Below the pieces are notes generated by a model. The model was not told where the DNA came from, ran no database searches, and saw only the letters and a list, made by a program, of their open reading frames with translations. The translations under genes and the position numbers were made by a program. From a virus, in the IMG/VR virus record IMGVR_UViG_3300013108_000516, positions 1 to 21,961 of that record: 21,961 nt of DNA; one strand, written 5' to 3'. Within the stretch, counting starts at the first letter, position 1; every line of letters starts with the position of its first letter. Below are positions 1 through 14,990 of the stretch, in pieces.

Positions 1-2
1 GA

Positions 3-77
3 TATGACCTGGCATCTGAACTAGAACAGTCTATATGTGATAGGATAAAGGCTTTTATATATTATAGAGCCATATAA
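3..77 (+). CDS. C-terminal end of an unidentified gene (partial)
   Basis: The frame starting at base 3 is open from the window edge and stops with TAA at 75-77. It encodes the last 24 residues of a protein that begins outside the window (ending ...IKAFIYYRAI). Charged and hydrophobic residues alternate as in a helix, which fits a real C-terminus. It is too short to identify. The next gene lies about 70 bases downstream on the same strand, so it is probably part of the same rightward gene series. Confidence 0.4.
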   Translation, partial: YDLASELEQSICDRIKAFIYYRAI

Positions 78-150
78 TAAATGTGTAACCTTAAAAACAA
101 TTAATCATGGAAAAGAAAACAATAAAAACGTATAATTAAATTTTTAAAAA

Positions 151-1038
151 ATGAATGTATTAAGTTTATTTGACGGCATGAGTTGCGGACAGATAGCACT
201 CAACAAGCTAGGGATTAATTATGATAATTACTTTGCAAGCGAGATTGACAAACACGCTATACAAATAACACAAAAGAACTACCCCAACACTAAACAAATT
301 GGTAATGTAGTTGATGTAAAAGCAGAAGATTTGCCAAAGATTGATTTACTTTTTGGTGGTAGCCCTTGCCAAAGTTTTAGTAGATCAGGTGACGGAAGCG
401 GATTCGACGGTAAAAGCAAATTGTTTTGGGAATTTTTAAGATTATTAAAAGAAACAAAACCTAAATACTTTCTTCTAGAAAATGTGCTTATGAAAAAAGA
501 ATGGGAGCATATAATAACAAAAGAATTAGGAGTAGACTGTATTTTAATAAATAGTAGTCTAGTGTCTGCTCAAAAAAGAGAAAGGCTATACTGGACCAAC
601 ATACCTAATATAGAACAACCCTTAGACAAAGGTATCACACTTAGTGATGTTTTAATTGACTCTGATAGAAAAGAATACCTTGATAAAGACTTAATATTAA
701 AAACAGACGATAAAGGTGTTTACGTTAGAAACGCTACAAAAAAAGGATATTTAATAGCAGAAAACGGAGACGGTGTAAACTTAGATTTTCCTAAATCTAA
801 AACTAGAAGAGGTAGAGTTTCTAAAGGAAAAATAAACACTTTAAATACCGCCTGTAACTACGGATTTGTAAAAGACTTTAAAATATACAAGCTAAACATA
901 ACAGAAATAGAAAAGTTACAAACAATACCAGAAGGATATACCAAAGGTGTTTCTGACAATCAAAGAAAAAAAATGATAGGCAACGGTTGGACAGTTGACG
1001 TAATAGCACACATCTTTAAAAATATACCACTAACATAA
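151..1038 (+). CDS. DNA (cytosine-5) methyltransferase
   Basis: This 295-residue protein carries the ordered motifs of C5 cytosine methyltransferases. It has the SAM-binding motif I FDGMSCG (residues 7-13), the catalytic Pro-Cys motif GGSPCQSFS with nucleophile Cys73, ENV (110-112), and a QKRERLYW block (141-148) matching motif VIII. A short target-recognition region follows, then the C-terminal motif X-like MIGNGWTVDV near 275-284. The enzyme transfers a methyl group from S-adenosylmethionine to cytosine C5 in duplex DNA; the target site cannot be read from the sequence. It is short but complete, as phage orphan methyltransferases often are, and no restriction enzyme lies beside it. A likely role is protecting phage DNA from host restriction. 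The ATG at 151 sits just before motif I and after an A/T-rich leader. The last base of its TAA stop is the A of the next gene's ATG. Confidence 0.92.
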   Translation: MNVLSLFDGMSCGQIALNKLGINYDNYFASEIDKHAIQITQKNYPNTKQIGNVVDVKAEDLPKIDLLFGGSPCQSFSRSGDGSGFDGKSKLFWEFLRLLKETKPKYFLLENVLMKKEWEHIITKELGVDCILINSSLVSAQKRERLYWTNIPNIEQPLDKGITLSDVLIDSDRKEYLDKDLILKTDDKGVYVRNATKKGYLIAENGDGVNLDFPKSKTRRGRVSKGKINTLNTACNYGFVKDFKIYKLNITEIEKLQTIPEGYTKGVSDNQRKKMIGNGWTVDVIAHIFKNIPLT

Positions 1039-6843: not shown

Positions 6844-7491
6844 ATGATATACGTAAAAGATTATATGCTTGTTGATATTGACCTAAAACAGCATTTGAAA
6901 AAAACCATAAAATTAGGAGAAAAAGAAGTAGAGCTTTACATGGATACAATATTCTCCAGAATGGAAGAAGACGGCACAGCTCCTTTAGATCCTTCTTTGA
7001 TACCTCACAAGGGGACGGTAGTAGGAAAACCAAGAGGACTTAGTAGTGTGGTTAAGAAAGACCAAATAACTCTGGATGAAATAGATGAAGGTGATGTTGT
7101 TTACTTTCATCATCATGTGGTGAATTTTGAGAGAAGAACAGAAGACGGTAAGTTTTTCTTTCGGTTCTTCAGGGATATGATTGCTAAGTATGCTACTAGC
7201 TCATATTGTAAAATCGTAGACGGAGAGATAATCCCAATACACAAGTGGTCCATTTGTAAGAAGTATAAAAACATATTTCAATCCACCACATTAATAATTC
7301 CAGACTACCTTAAGAATAAAAAAACAGAAGATTTATTAGAGGTGGTTGCTCCTTCAAGGTTTATTGCTGATGAAGTTAGTAAGGGTGATGTGATTGTCGT
7401 TAAACCTCTGGGTGCTGTTGATCTTAAGATAGAAGGTGAAGATTATGTGGTTATTCATGAAGATGATATTTTTGGTGTTCAGACTTGTTAA
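6844..7491 (+). CDS. Tandem GroES-like (co-chaperonin-like) protein
   Basis: A 215-residue protein whose C-terminal half ends with GDVIVVKPLGAVDLKIEGED and YVVIHEDDIFGV (181-212). This matches the end of GroES-type proteins (GD-v-v-f ... k-i-dgeeY-l-i-eeDIlav). The N-terminal half has its own GDVVYFHHHVV (83-93) and YCKIVDGEIIPIHKWSI (121-137), which align with the same strands. The protein therefore looks like two GroES folds in one chain, about twice the normal 97 residues. GroES forms the lid of the GroEL folding cage; phages such as T4 carry their own lid protein to fold capsid proteins. The mobile-loop sequence is not obvious. The stop codon lies inside the opening box of attC-like site 4. 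Confidence 0.55.
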   Translation: MIYVKDYMLVDIDLKQHLKKTIKLGEKEVELYMDTIFSRMEEDGTAPLDPSLIPHKGTVVGKPRGLSSVVKKDQITLDEIDEGDVVYFHHHVVNFERRTEDGKFFFRFFRDMIAKYATSSYCKIVDGEIIPIHKWSICKKYKNIFQSTTLIIPDYLKNKKTEDLLEVVAPSRFIADEVSKGDVIVVKPLGAVDLKIEGEDYVVIHEDDIFGVQTC

Positions 7492-9599: not shown

Positions 9600-10829
9600 A
9601 TGGAAATGTTAACAGTAAATAACCTGTGGATGATGGTCTGTACAGGTTTGGTGTTCTTTATGCACTTAGGATTTAGCTTGTTGGAGATAGGACTGACAAG
9701 ACAAAAAAATACCATCAACATCCTATTCAAAAATATCTTCATTATTTGTATGGGGCTTTTGGTCTACTACATAGGAGGGTTCAATCTCATGTATCCAGGT
9801 TTTGAAGATGGTAGCATGGGAGTTCTTAAGTTTGCAGGTTTCGGAATTGATGCTCCTGTAAATGGAATGACTGCCGATTATGCTGACGGTGGCTACACTT
9901 GGTGGACAGACTTTTTGTTCCAAGGTATGTTCGCTGCAACCGCTGCTACAATTGTCTCAGGAGCAGTAGCTGAAAGAATTAAGCTTAGTAGCTTTATGAT
10001 TTTCAGCGTTATCTATGTAGGGCTTGTATACCCTATAGTAGGTAGCTGGAAGTGGGGTGGTGGATTCCTTGATAATATGGGATTCTATGACTTCGCTGGA
10101 AGTACTCTTGTTCACTCTGTTGGTGGATGGGCGGCATTAGTGGCTGTATGGCTACTTGGTGCTAGACTAGGTAAGTTTAAAGAGGGTAAATCTTTTGCTA
10201 TTCTAGGACACAATATTCCTTTTGCTACGGCAGGAGTATTAATCTTGTGGCTAGGTTGGTTTGGATTTAACGGAGGTTCTGTTTTAAGTGCTGACGCTGC
10301 ATTAACTTCTTTAACTCTTGTTACCACTTGTCTTGCGGCAGCAGCAGGAGGTTTTGGAGCTGCTATTACATCTTATCTTAAGAATAAGACATTAGACTTA
10401 ACAATGTTTCTTAACGGAATCTTAGGAGGACTTGTCGCTATTACGGCAGGTGCTGACCAAATGAGTCCAAACGAATCTGTTGTTGTAGGTCTTATTGGAG
10501 GTATTATAGTAGTCTTTGCGGTTGCTCTGTTAGACAAACTTAAACTAGATGATCCAGTAGGTGCTATCGCTGTTCACCTTGGATGTGGAATATGGGGAAC
10601 ATTAGCAGTAGGAATCTTCGGAGAATTAGCTAGTGGTAGTCAATTTCTTACACAGCTTATAGGGGTTGCCGTAATCGGAGCTTTCTGTCTAATTAGTTCT
10701 TTCTTAATTCTATTTACCATAAAGAAAATTATGGGACTTAGAGTTCCAAAAAGAGAAGAACTTGAAGGACTAGACAGTGCCGAGCATGGCATGAGTGCTT
10801 ATCCAGATTTCAGATTAAATCAACATTAA
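9600..10829 (+). CDS. amtB: Ammonium channel AmtB
   Basis: A 409-residue integral membrane protein with about 11 hydrophobic segments and the Amt signature YDFAGSTLVHSVGG (163-176). Asp164 and His172 correspond to the substrate-site Asp160 and pore His168 of E. coli AmtB, and His326 (AVHLGCG) to the second pore His318. The cytoplasmic tail GLRVPKREELEGLDSAEHG is intact and close to the region known to bind GlnK. It conducts ammonium/ammonia across the inner membrane. All key parts are present and I see no frameshift, so it is likely functional. The start ATG 9600 follows a purine-rich AGAAGAAG; ATG 9606 is also possible. It is translated just after the PII gene, and a hairpin follows it. Confidence 0.95.
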   Translation: MEMLTVNNLWMMVCTGLVFFMHLGFSLLEIGLTRQKNTINILFKNIFIICMGLLVYYIGGFNLMYPGFEDGSMGVLKFAGFGIDAPVNGMTADYADGGYTWWTDFLFQGMFAATAATIVSGAVAERIKLSSFMIFSVIYVGLVYPIVGSWKWGGGFLDNMGFYDFAGSTLVHSVGGWAALVAVWLLGARLGKFKEGKSFAILGHNIPFATAGVLILWLGWFGFNGGSVLSADAALTSLTLVTTCLAAAAGGFGAAITSYLKNKTLDLTMFLNGILGGLVAITAGADQMSPNESVVVGLIGGIIVVFAVALLDKLKLDDPVGAIAVHLGCGIWGTLAVGIFGELASGSQFLTQLIGVAVIGAFCLISSFLILFTIKKIMGLRVPKREELEGLDSAEHGMSAYPDFRLNQH

Positions 10830-10835
10830 TAACAC

Positions 10836-10861
10836 AGGGGGCTAATCACCCCCTTAATTTT
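10836..10861 (+). terminator. Intercistronic hairpin / partial terminator after amtB
   Basis: AGGGGG (10836-10841) pairs with CCCCCT (10849-10854) around a 7-base loop, followed by TAATTTT. The GC stem is striking in AT-rich DNA. The tail is short in T, so it may lower rather than stop transcription into the porin gene, or protect the glnK-amtB transcript. Confidence 0.6.
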
Positions 10862-10867
10862 ACAAAA

Positions 10868-11857
10868 ATGAAAAAACTATTTACATTTATATTATTAGCT
10901 ACTACAATACTATCTTACGGTCAAGATAGCTTGAAGTCAAACCTTTCTTTAGAGGGAAGTGTAGACGTTTATTACAGAAGAAACCTTAGTACAGCAAAAA
11001 CAGATTTAGCTCCTGCTACATCGTTTGCTAACTTAAACGGTTTCAGTTTGGGTATGTTCAACCTTATTAGTTCTTACGATACAAAGAACACAGGTGTTGT
11101 TGCAGACTTAGTTTTTGGACCTAGAGGAGAAGACGCTGTTTTTCTATCTACTGGAAGTTCTAACATCATTAATCAGCTTTATGCTTATTGGGACGTTAGT
11201 AAAAGTGTGACCTTGACTATGGGTAACTTTAATACTTTCCTAGGATATGAAGTAATCAGTCCAACAGGGAACTTTAACTACTCTACATCCTATATGTTTA
11301 GCTACGGTCCATTCTCCCACTCTGGGTTAAAGGCAGACATTGCTTTGTCTGAAAACTTTACCGCTATGCTTGCTGTTTTAAACGCTACTGATGCAACGGA
11401 TTTCAACCCGTCTAATTTTAGTACGCTAGGTGCTGTGTTAGCATACAAGAATACGTATTTGAACTTCTTATTAGGAAAACAAGATCCTAGCTCTGAAGCT
11501 ACTTTTCAAGTTGACTTAACGGGAGGATATAATTTATCAGAAAAATTTTATTTAGGAATAAATTCTACATATAATGACACTGATGGCAACGGTTTTTATG
11601 GAGCAGCTTTGTATCCTCAATATTCTTTTGGTAAATTAACCGCAGGTTTAAGAGGTGAGTACTTCGCTGAAGTTGGAGACGGAGTTGGAGCAATTGGAGC
11701 AGACGCTAATGTTATAAACTTTACCACTACTTTGGATTATGCAATAGAGAATATGAATCTAAAGTTAGAGTATAGATTAGACAAAGCAAGTGAGCAAGTA
11801 TTTGAGCAAAAGGATAACCTGTCAAGCATAGTTTTGGCAGCAGTATACTCCTTTTAA
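10868..11857 (+). CDS. Outer-membrane beta-barrel porin-like protein
   Basis: A 329-residue protein with a signal peptide (MKKLFTFILLATTILSYG, cut near residue 18 before Q), many alternating amphipathic strands, aromatic belts (for example TLTMGNFNTFLGYEVI) and a C-terminal Phe (AAVYSF) as in outer-membrane barrels. It resembles the OmpL/BBP2-like porins that, from memory, sit next to amt and PII genes in many Bacteroidetes. A likely job is to let ammonium or another small solute pass the outer membrane to AmtB. It lies downstream of the hairpin after amtB and upstream of a strong terminator, so the three genes form one unit. The class is confident; the substrate is inferred. Confidence 0.85.
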   Translation: MKKLFTFILLATTILSYGQDSLKSNLSLEGSVDVYYRRNLSTAKTDLAPATSFANLNGFSLGMFNLISSYDTKNTGVVADLVFGPRGEDAVFLSTGSSNIINQLYAYWDVSKSVTLTMGNFNTFLGYEVISPTGNFNYSTSYMFSYGPFSHSGLKADIALSENFTAMLAVLNATDATDFNPSNFSTLGAVLAYKNTYLNFLLGKQDPSSEATFQVDLTGGYNLSEKFYLGINSTYNDTDGNGFYGAALYPQYSFGKLTAGLRGEYFAEVGDGVGAIGADANVINFTTTLDYAIENMNLKLEYRLDKASEQVFEQKDNLSSIVLAAVYSF

Positions 11858-13421: not shown

Positions 13422-14043
13422 TGAAGACTATCAGAAAGTAGCTGAACGACAAGCTATATTTAAAAAAGATTATGCAACCCATAAAATCACCACACACTTA
13501 CTAGACACCTGTATTATTGACGGTAAGCATCAGGTTATTATTAAGTGTGAGATACTCAATGGCTCAGGCAAGGTTGTAGCAACAGGAATAGCCTCTGAAA
13601 GAGAAGGCACTAACAACATTAACAAAACAAGCTGGGTAGAGAATGCCGAGACCTCTGCGATAGGAAGGGCGTTCAGAGCATTAGGGATTGGTGATAACGA
13701 AAACTACGCCTCTAAAGAAGAAGTTAGTAACGCTAAAGAAAAGTTAGGCACTGTTGAGAAGCAAGAAAAAGTTTCTAAAGGAAAATCCCTTACAGAGAAA
13801 GCTAAGAAAAACACCAAGAAGTTAGACTTTAGTTTTATTACAGACGACAGAAAAGTATCTGACTTAAAAAAGATAGCTGACGGATTAAAGATGTTCGGTA
13901 TTACCAAACTACAATTAACTCCTGCTTTTAAAAGATACGACCAAGAGGGTAAATACAAAGACCTAGCAGAGTTTATGGTTACTATGCCTACCGAAGAGCT
14001 GAAAACGTTTATTACTGAATATGTTGTCAATAATAAAAAATGA
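13411..14043 (+). CDS. Putative single-strand annealing / ERF-like recombination protein
   Basis: A 210-residue protein. Residues about 25-105 have the beta-rich core and the phrase SWVENAETSAIGRAFRALGIG followed by ASKEEV. This pattern recurs in phage proteins near exonucleases and SSB and resembles the helix of ERF/Rad52-type annealing proteins. The C-terminal part is Lys-rich, then a helical domain (LQLTPAFKRYDQEGKYKDLA). A YqaJ-type exonuclease is encoded 3.8 kb downstream, matching the usual exonuclease-annealase pair for phage recombination. The family call is tentative. ATG 13411 overlaps the ribbon-helix-helix gene, and its stop overlaps the next start at 14040. Confidence 0.65.
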   Translation: MTYNEDYQKVAERQAIFKKDYATHKITTHLLDTCIIDGKHQVIIKCEILNGSGKVVATGIASEREGTNNINKTSWVENAETSAIGRAFRALGIGDNENYASKEEVSNAKEKLGTVEKQEKVSKGKSLTEKAKKNTKKLDFSFITDDRKVSDLKKIADGLKMFGITKLQLTPAFKRYDQEGKYKDLAEFMVTMPTEELKTFITEYVVNNKK

Positions 14044-14681
14044 GTTATCTAGTAGCCAACCTACCACAGATACAGTGTTATGTCAGAAGAGAATACCTGT
14101 ATGATTTTGACGAAGGACATGGAGATTATGAACCATGTTATTGGGTAAGTGTAAAGTCCATATTAGGAAAAGCACTTTACATTGAAGCCTACCTAACTGA
14201 ATACGGAGCTTTATATGATAAACTACCTATATCAGCTTTTGTCTGGAAAACAGATGTTGATGTTGATACATTTGTTCCACTTGATTACTTGCAAATATGG
14301 GATTGTTTTTCGTATAATATAACTGTCATTGAAAAAACGATATTAAAGAATATAGACTGTCAGGTATATATGAAAGATAAAAAGTTCCACAAGGGTTATT
14401 ATCTATTTACTATTGATAGCTGTCATTCAGAGCCTAATGAATTAAATGTGAGCCTTTCGCAAACACCTAACGAACATAAGTCTTTTAATATTATTAAGAT
14501 GGATAACGGTCAGTTTGCTGCTCAACCCAACAACAGGGTTCTATTCTATGATCAGTCTTTGACATCAAATAAATTAACTCCGCCAGACTTCAAGGTAAGC
14601 ACCCATGAGTTCTTCTGTGAGAATGCTCACAAATGGGCTGTAGAAGATGGTTATTTTTATGAGTTTAATAAAAAAGAATAG
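14040..14681 (+). CDS. Conserved phage protein of unknown function, 213 aa
   Basis: It opens MSYLVANLPQIQCYVRREYL and continues with many aromatic beta-strand segments (EPCYWVSVKSILGKALYIEA; LQIWDCFSYNITVIEK). This opening and the 'LQLWDCFSY' core match, from memory, a family found in many marine phages with no known role. No catalytic motif is clear. It overlaps the upstream stop by 4 bases and ends 3 bases before the next start, within the replication transcript, so a role in DNA metabolism or takeover is possible. Confidence 0.75.
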   Translation: MSYLVANLPQIQCYVRREYLYDFDEGHGDYEPCYWVSVKSILGKALYIEAYLTEYGALYDKLPISAFVWKTDVDVDTFVPLDYLQIWDCFSYNITVIEKTILKNIDCQVYMKDKKFHKGYYLFTIDSCHSEPNELNVSLSQTPNEHKSFNIIKMDNGQFAAQPNNRVLFYDQSLTSNKLTPPDFKVSTHEFFCENAHKWAVEDGYFYEFNKKE

Positions 14682-14684
14682 ACA

Positions 14685-14990
14685 GTGAACTTAATAGATA
14701 AAATCCAAAAAGGTAACGATTACTTAATTGACCAATGTGAAGCAAAGCTTAACTCATTAGGAGCGTTAGAGAAAGGAAAATTTACCCCGACAAACCCTAA
14801 AGCCTACAATAGATATAAAAAAGAAGCAGAGTTTAGATTAAGGTACGTAGAAGCCGTATCAGAACTGCTTAAACAACATGTACTACTATCAGAAGGGCTG
14901 CTAGAGTTTATTAATAAAATAGATAACGAAGGTAATATAGAAGAAGAGGAGATTAATGGTTTAAGAAAGTTTGCAGAAAAATATAAATAA
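14685..14990 (+). CDS. Hypothetical helical protein, 101 aa (GTG start)
   Basis: It starts at GTG 14685, 3 bases after the upstream stop; there is no ATG near. The protein is helical and charged (EAKLNSLGALEKGKFTPTNP and later helices), with no known motif. Its TAA stop overlaps the ATG of the primase-helicase by one base, so it may be translated with it and could be an accessory replication factor. Confidence 0.6.
   Translation: MNLIDKIQKGNDYLIDQCEAKLNSLGALEKGKFTPTNPKAYNRYKKEAEFRLRYVEAVSELLKQHVLLSEGLLEFINKIDNEGNIEEEEINGLRKFAEKYK

Follow-up and report, generated by a model that had tools for sequence, protein, structure and literature searches.

Bacterial GroES (Cpn10) is a single-domain protein that forms homoheptamers, whereas the phage co-chaperonin analysed here is predicted to consist of two fused barrels. 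Two GroES domains in tandem are known from chloroplast Cpn20, and Chlamydomonas subunits form hetero-oligomers totalling seven GroES domains (PMC5780408). According to the available part of the same paper, concatemers of six to eight GroES domains work with GroEL, Plasmodium Cpn20 can stand in for GroES in E. coli, and even-numbered lids pose a symmetry problem (PMC5780408). A GroES-type lid is also carried by phage T4, whose gp31 is single-domain, in contrast to the two-barrel phage tandem, and is described in the accessible sections of PMC6318259 as heptameric, as lacking roof loops and as forming a cage that is thought to admit the larger capsid protein. GroEL has already been published for phi38:1-type viruses (PMC5332604, available in part), and the phi38:1 GroEL is listed in the available portion of PMC13288928. 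Among catalogued phage proteins, phrog_13932, represented by Cellulophaga phages phi38:1 and Calle_1 and by the cpn10 of phi18:3, has the same length and two-domain layout as the protein described below. In the literature searched, which lay mostly outside subscription journals and was partly available as excerpts, no description of the two-barrel nature of the phage co-chaperonin was found.

The DNA analysed (the window) is a stretch of 21,961 nucleotides, positions 1 to 21,961 of IMG/VR virus record IMGVR_UViG_3300013108_000516, and the source of the tandem GroES protein is a marine phage. An earlier note, made from the DNA letters and their translations, had proposed that one 215-residue protein of the window contains two GroES folds. 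This is confirmed here at the level of profile comparison and modelling, which predict one GroES-type barrel in residues 1-126 (D1) and another in residues 127-215 (D2), with hhalign, Pfam matches in relatives and the structural model all in support of the first (Table 1). The strand motifs cited for the proposal are found in both halves: the GD-hydrophobic motif at residues 83-88 and 181-186, and the DGE-like motif, a DGK/EGE turn with the strand that follows it, at residues 101-107 and 197-203. The protein is a member of the catalogued family phrog_13932 and not a new protein family.

Table 1. Positions of the tandem co-chaperonin gene and of its predicted domains and motifs in the window.
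Feature	Position	Strand	Basis or remark
Tandem (two-barrel) GroES-type co-chaperonin gene	6844..7491	+	215 aa, ATG start
First GroES-type domain (D1), residues 1-126	6844..7221	+	hhalign with shuffles, fold match of D1 alone, Pfam in relatives
D1 loop region, residues 19-55, candidate mobile loop	6898..7008	+	Low pLDDT stretch, conserved hydrophobics; putative function
D1 GDxVYFHH strand and His pair, residues 83-90	7090..7113	+	Conservation partly by construction
Junction of D1 (final strand, 120-125) and D2 (opening strands, 128-131 and 135-142) through a turn of two residues	7201..7269	+	DSSP on model
Second GroES-type domain (D2), residues 127-215	7222..7488	+	Canonical Cpn10 by Pfam and PHROG
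D2 mobile-loop region, hydrophobic tripeptide LII (residues 150-152)	7270..7329	+	Cpn10 alignment

Compared with bacterial GroES/Cpn10, D2 belongs to the same Pfam family (PF00166) and D1 is distantly related to it. The Cpn10 profile of Pfam covers residues 146-212 (E 6.5e-8, 32.9 bits against a cut-off of 21.1) and the single-domain phrog_3188 matches residues 129-212 (E 1.1e-7), while the 200-column profile of phrog_13932, annotated “co-chaperonin GroES”, matches residues 83-212 (E 5.7e-6) through its columns 59-198, leaving its first 58 columns uncovered. A match to NlpC/P60 (E 0.22) was below the cut-off and was dropped. The LII tripeptide of D2 aligns with the Cpn10 mobile loop, at the position of IVL in GroES, and its three positions are hydrophobic in 26, 23 and 25 of 27 rows, respectively (residue conservation was counted in 27 of the 30 rows of the family alignment, A4). 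Relative to three bacterial Cpn10 chains, D2 has a gap of 6-7 residues between “APSRF” and “VSKGD”, which we take to be the place of the GroES roof hairpin. D2 appears to lack this hairpin, as T4 gp31 lacks the roof loops. The matches listed for the tandem protein include none to T4 gp31 at the sequence level; in structural comparison, gp31 (1g31, 2cgt) matches D2 of the model with Z 6.9.

No Pfam family matched D1 of the window protein alone, and the domain is thus missed by single-sequence tools. With the boundary between the two domains set at residue 126, a D1 profile built from 30 relatives obtained an hhalign score of 39.4 (P 9.7e-7) against nine single-domain GroES proteins and of 41.6 (P 2.1e-7) against the D2 profile. 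By comparison, 100 column-shuffled D1 profiles reached at most 15.4 against the GroES set or D2, and the reversed D1 profile scored only 9.8 and 10.5. In three relatives (G009, G022 and G026) Pfam Cpn10 matches both halves, the first with E-values from 7.0e-6 to 8.8e-5. Modelled alone, D1 reaches a pLDDT of only 61.1, i.e. low confidence. The 16 best Foldseek matches of this model are all GroES/Cpn10, the best at E 0.03 and none with E below 0.001, so that the identity of D1 rests mainly on hhalign and on the Pfam matches in relatives. In VIA comparisons the D1-alone model gives Z 6.7 with a co-chaperonin, versus 3.2 for the best chain outside the co-chaperonins. Structure prediction had been named in the earlier note as the check on whether the first half lacks a GroES-like barrel, and the D1 that it returned matches GroES/Cpn10, so that this check did not refute the proposal. 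The GroES-like domain of alcohol dehydrogenases was rejected as an identity for D1, such chains reaching Z of at most 3.2 against D1 and up to 5.1 against D2, in both cases below the co-chaperonins.

The AlphaFold2 model of the whole window protein, made with alignment A4, has a pLDDT of 76.7 and a pTM of 0.74. Among solved structures it matches best the two-barrel Cpn20 chain 7ekq_R of Chlamydomonas (Foldseek E 1.1e-4, TM 0.51/0.56; VIA-align Z 10.5, rmsd 3.8, 163 aligned residues over 1..214), which bears out the comparison with plastid Cpn20 that had been suggested, while GroES chains align with D2 only in the full model (Z up to 8.8). The 7ekq_R chain is part of a solved co-chaperonin hetero-oligomer with chains named Chaperonin 11, Chaperonin 23 and Cpn20 subunit. 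Among viral structures (BFVD), the best match is cpn10 of phi18:3 (200 aa, E 6e-10). Cpn20, from the chloroplast or apicoplast, shares with the phage protein the two GroES domains arranged head to tail, and the structural match extends over the full length. However, Cpn20 is a eukaryotic organelle protein that is about 16% identical to the phage tandem in the structural alignment, and phage D1 is distinct in its loop and its His pair. We liken the two in the sense of “works like”, not of membership or common descent.

The model also suggests how the two barrels are arranged. According to DSSP, the last strand of D1 turns directly into the first strand of D2, making a tight beta-hairpin, and the residues at the turn (126-127) are usually D-G or similar across the family. 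In GroES rings, each subunit packs its C-terminal strand against the N-terminal strand of its neighbour. Given this pairing, the tight hairpin of the model fits a chain that spans two neighbouring lid positions, and the barrels are expected to lie next to each other as adjacent GroES subunits do. Such an arrangement is also consistent with the Cpn20 match over the full length.

The loop region of D1 consists of a hairpin with a conserved [L/I]-x-[L/I]-D motif at residues 31-34, of which positions 31 and 33 are hydrophobic in 27 of 27 rows, followed by a low-confidence stretch (pLDDT below 50 for residues 37-45). D1 may not bind GroEL, since its loop differs from the canonical GGIVL and the loop motif falls in a strand that is modelled as ordered. 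Both the loop and the His pair are family-specific. That GD-V-Y-HH is invariant in the alignment follows in part from the way the set was collected, as GDxVYFHH was the DNA search pattern; members found without it have FHH (phi38:1), VHH (ctfjg026) and, in a copy from a Flavobacteriales genome, FHY, and hence the second His is not strictly kept.

Close relatives of the window protein, 55-100% identical, occur in several IMG/VR contigs. Searching with a degenerate DNA pattern for GDxVYFHH gave 61 loci, nearly all encoding proteins of approximately 190-222 aa with the same layout. Seven were dropped (L042 and L058, unrelated at 63-64 aa; L039, L043, L078 and L081, truncated; and L088, 344 aa with insertions), leaving 54, or 29 at under 90% identity. 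Alignment A4 has 30 rows, comprising 25 pattern-locus sequences and five from the window's own subgroup, with L047, L050 and L057 (extra domains or insertions) and L052 (a duplicate of L017) left out. All 30 members match phrog_13932 (best E 3.5e-47) and all 30 match PF00166; MazE matches in two relatives were taken as chance. The subgroup of the window is divergent with respect to phrog_13932 (E 5.7e-6) and carries a 10-residue insertion after the D1 loop. When the window protein and L009 were used as tblastn queries against phage records, no relative was found at E 0.01 or E 1, and E 10 gave weak matches only, to single GroES and other proteins. Two other relatives as queries retrieved Cellulophaga phages phi38:1, phi40:1 and Calle_1-3 and the metagenomic podovirus ctfjg026, where the proteins are annotated as co-chaperonin GroES, Cpn10 or hypothetical. 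The A4 profile found no relative in the genome contigs scanned, and a D1-type profile matches one of 196 Flavobacteriales genomes. In that order, one contig (L197 1-2026, G221 contig 41) carries two neighbouring copies of the tandem gene, one of which lacks the middle of the protein.

In a domain tree of 76 rows, which includes one of three host GroES sequences and was built without Cpn20, all 30 D1 domains fall on one side of a branch with support of 100/99 and 100% of 200 bootstraps. A single D1 clade indicates that the two-domain arrangement probably arose once and that the fusion is old in these phages. The same separation of D1 from D2 and single GroES agrees, as far as sequences can tell, with the suggestion that a double lid subunit would have two non-identical faces. 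Few columns and long branches limit finer claims from this tree. D2 of the window's subgroup joins the third domain of G012 and single GroES on long branches; this was flagged as a possible artefact, for which reason a replacement of D2 in the subgroup is not claimed. G012 (L106 6912-7784, 290 aa) is a three-barrel member, Pfam Cpn10 matching three stretches of its 293-aa frame (E 7.6e-4, 5.2e-6 and 6.2e-12). In G017 (L107 5347-6222, 291 aa) a third barrel was read from the sequence, with Pfam matching one stretch only. L050 (5616-6449) and L074 represent a variant of 278 aa whose D1 loop is extended by a long insertion, probably helical.

Outside the window's subgroup, the tandem gene is usually located just upstream of the terminase and portal genes. 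Here 23 of 29 relatives have, among the six ORFs downstream, one of 340 aa or more on the same strand, and the first such ORF matches the large terminase subunit (TerL, phrog_6681) in 21 of these 23 (21 of all 29). The next ORF of at least 340 aa after the one in the TerL position matches the portal (phrog_6547) in 15 of 17 cases. In the window's subgroup, by contrast, none of five loci has a large downstream ORF within six ORFs, and the tandem gene sits outside the packaging module: in G001, TerL (31442-33427, + strand) and the tandem (14258-14896, - strand) are about 17 kb apart on opposite strands. Most loci outside the subgroup also have an ORF of ~80-95 aa directly upstream of the tandem, for example gp088 of phi38:1; the encoded protein is conserved, with an “RKI..G” start and a “WK” motif. 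In L059, a small ORF preceding the tandem resembles GroES on visual inspection but has no PHROG match, and was not counted.

GroEL and single-domain GroES were searched for in 34 records chosen from the loci. GroEL is encoded in six, all of which are among the eight with a separate single-domain GroES (G011, G014, G018, G019, G027, phi38:1, ctfjg026 and Calle_1). In the isolate Cellulophaga phage phi38:1, GroEL (gp005) and Cpn10 (gp007) are far from the tandem (gp089), which adjoins terminase and portal. The order in G019 (L109 5080-7951) is GroEL, single GroES, a small ORF, the tandem, and then TerL-sized and portal-sized ORFs, TerL and portal being named here by ORF size and place. The nine records of the window's subgroup that were searched, which may be fragments, gave no GroEL and no second GroES.

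The host of the window phage is probably a flavobacterium, as its AmtB is at best 76-78% identical to sequences of Flavobacteriaceae. Three Flavobacteriaceae genomes gave one Cpn10 match of ordinary size each. In the window (9600-11857, +) the gene for this AmtB ammonium transporter (PF00909, E 2.6e-117) precedes one for a BBP2 outer-membrane porin (PF07642, E 5.8e-62), and the two may form a nitrogen-uptake pair carried by the phage. Elsewhere in the window are a 213-aa protein (14040-14681, +) matching phrog_3704 “ferredoxin” (E 1.3e-90), a label that looks odd for the sequence, and two matches to the C5 cytosine methylase family (151-1038 and 2167-2805, +; E 3.1e-41 and 6.2e-6).

By analogy with Cpn20, we consider it fairly probable that the tandem protein is a GroEL lid that helps phage head and packaging proteins to fold. 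The two barrels of a chain would occupy neighbouring lid positions, and the loop of each, with its conserved hydrophobic motif, would dock on a GroEL apical domain; during infection the tandem would supply the lid of the host GroEL ring, wholly or in part, and the lidded GroEL would assist the folding of head and packaging proteins, its putative clients. Host GroEL is taken as the partner because the searched records of the window's subgroup yielded no GroEL gene. Conservation of the hydrophobic loop positions in both domains supports a lid, and the working concatemers, together with the replacement of GroES by Plasmodium Cpn20, make a two-barrel phage lid mechanically possible with or without a single-domain partner. 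Against a lid, the tandem of the window's subgroup is not near TerL, and phi38:1 keeps a separate GroEL and single Cpn10, so that the tandem may have a task other than closing GroEL. The earlier note had also expected a fused lid subunit to change the symmetry of the lid, which is plausible, and had suggested the capsid protein as a special GroEL client, which stays a candidate. Seven positions cannot be filled by two-barrel subunits alone, which makes mixed rings an idea that can be tested, and the co-occurrence of single GroES and the existence of three-barrel members make mixed seven-domain lids worth testing, with domain sums of, for example, 2+2+2+1, 3+2+2 or 2+2+1+1+1. More tentatively, phages might have independently evolved lids of the Cpn20/Cpn10 kind, in which two- or three-barrel subunits combine with a phage or host single GroES into asymmetric seven-domain lids dedicated to head and packaging proteins.

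Other roles seem less likely. A GroES-type tandem that has lost its binding to GroEL could instead serve packaging or assembly, either chaperoning terminase, portal or capsid proteins by direct contact or being itself a minor structural component. The position of TerL as first large downstream ORF in 21 of the 29 relatives outside the window's subgroup would fit this, as would the family-specific loop and His pair of D1 and the retention of the tandem in phages with their own GroEL and single Cpn10, in phi38:1 beside terminase and portal. Yet D2 keeps both its similarity to Cpn10 and the hydrophobic tripeptide of the mobile loop, and the window's subgroup has left the packaging module and still keeps the protein; we therefore regard direct action on assembly proteins as unlikely. 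It is improbable that the tandem is a decoy or modulator, which would dock on host GroEL and displace host GroES without closing a productive lid, drawing the chaperonin away from host clients. The symmetry problem of even-numbered lids speaks for a decoy (PMC5780408, available part), and the nine subgroup records without GroEL or a second GroES would make host GroEL its partner, but the same text describes concatemers of six and eight domains as productive lids, and likewise Plasmodium Cpn20 in E. coli. Slightly more remote still is an anti-protease cap, in which the tandem would cover a different host ring of seven-fold symmetry, for instance ClpP, and block it during infection. This idea stems from the best solved match, since 7ekq (titled CrClpP-S2c) is a ClpP entry with chloroplast co-chaperonin chains; the available part of PMC8889267 places CPN11/CPN20/CPN23 on an axial side of that ClpP core and refers to a preprint that, according to its title, reports inhibition of ClpP by the interaction. 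However, the match reflects shared Cpn20 architecture and not ClpP binding, and a role in folding is indicated by linkage with TerL and, for some records, with GroEL.

The tandem co-chaperonin is called a unique, chloroplast-specific type in the available part of PMC5780408. A phage counterpart acting as a Cpn20-like GroEL lid, present in the isolated phage phi38:1 with its host Cellulophaga baltica, would offer a simple bacterial system for fused-barrel lids. It may allow one to address what fused barrels are used for, how a two-barrel unit is accommodated in a seven-fold ring, and whether a mixed lid selects its clients. For the last of these, the linkage to terminase and portal offers candidate clients besides the capsid protein known from T4.
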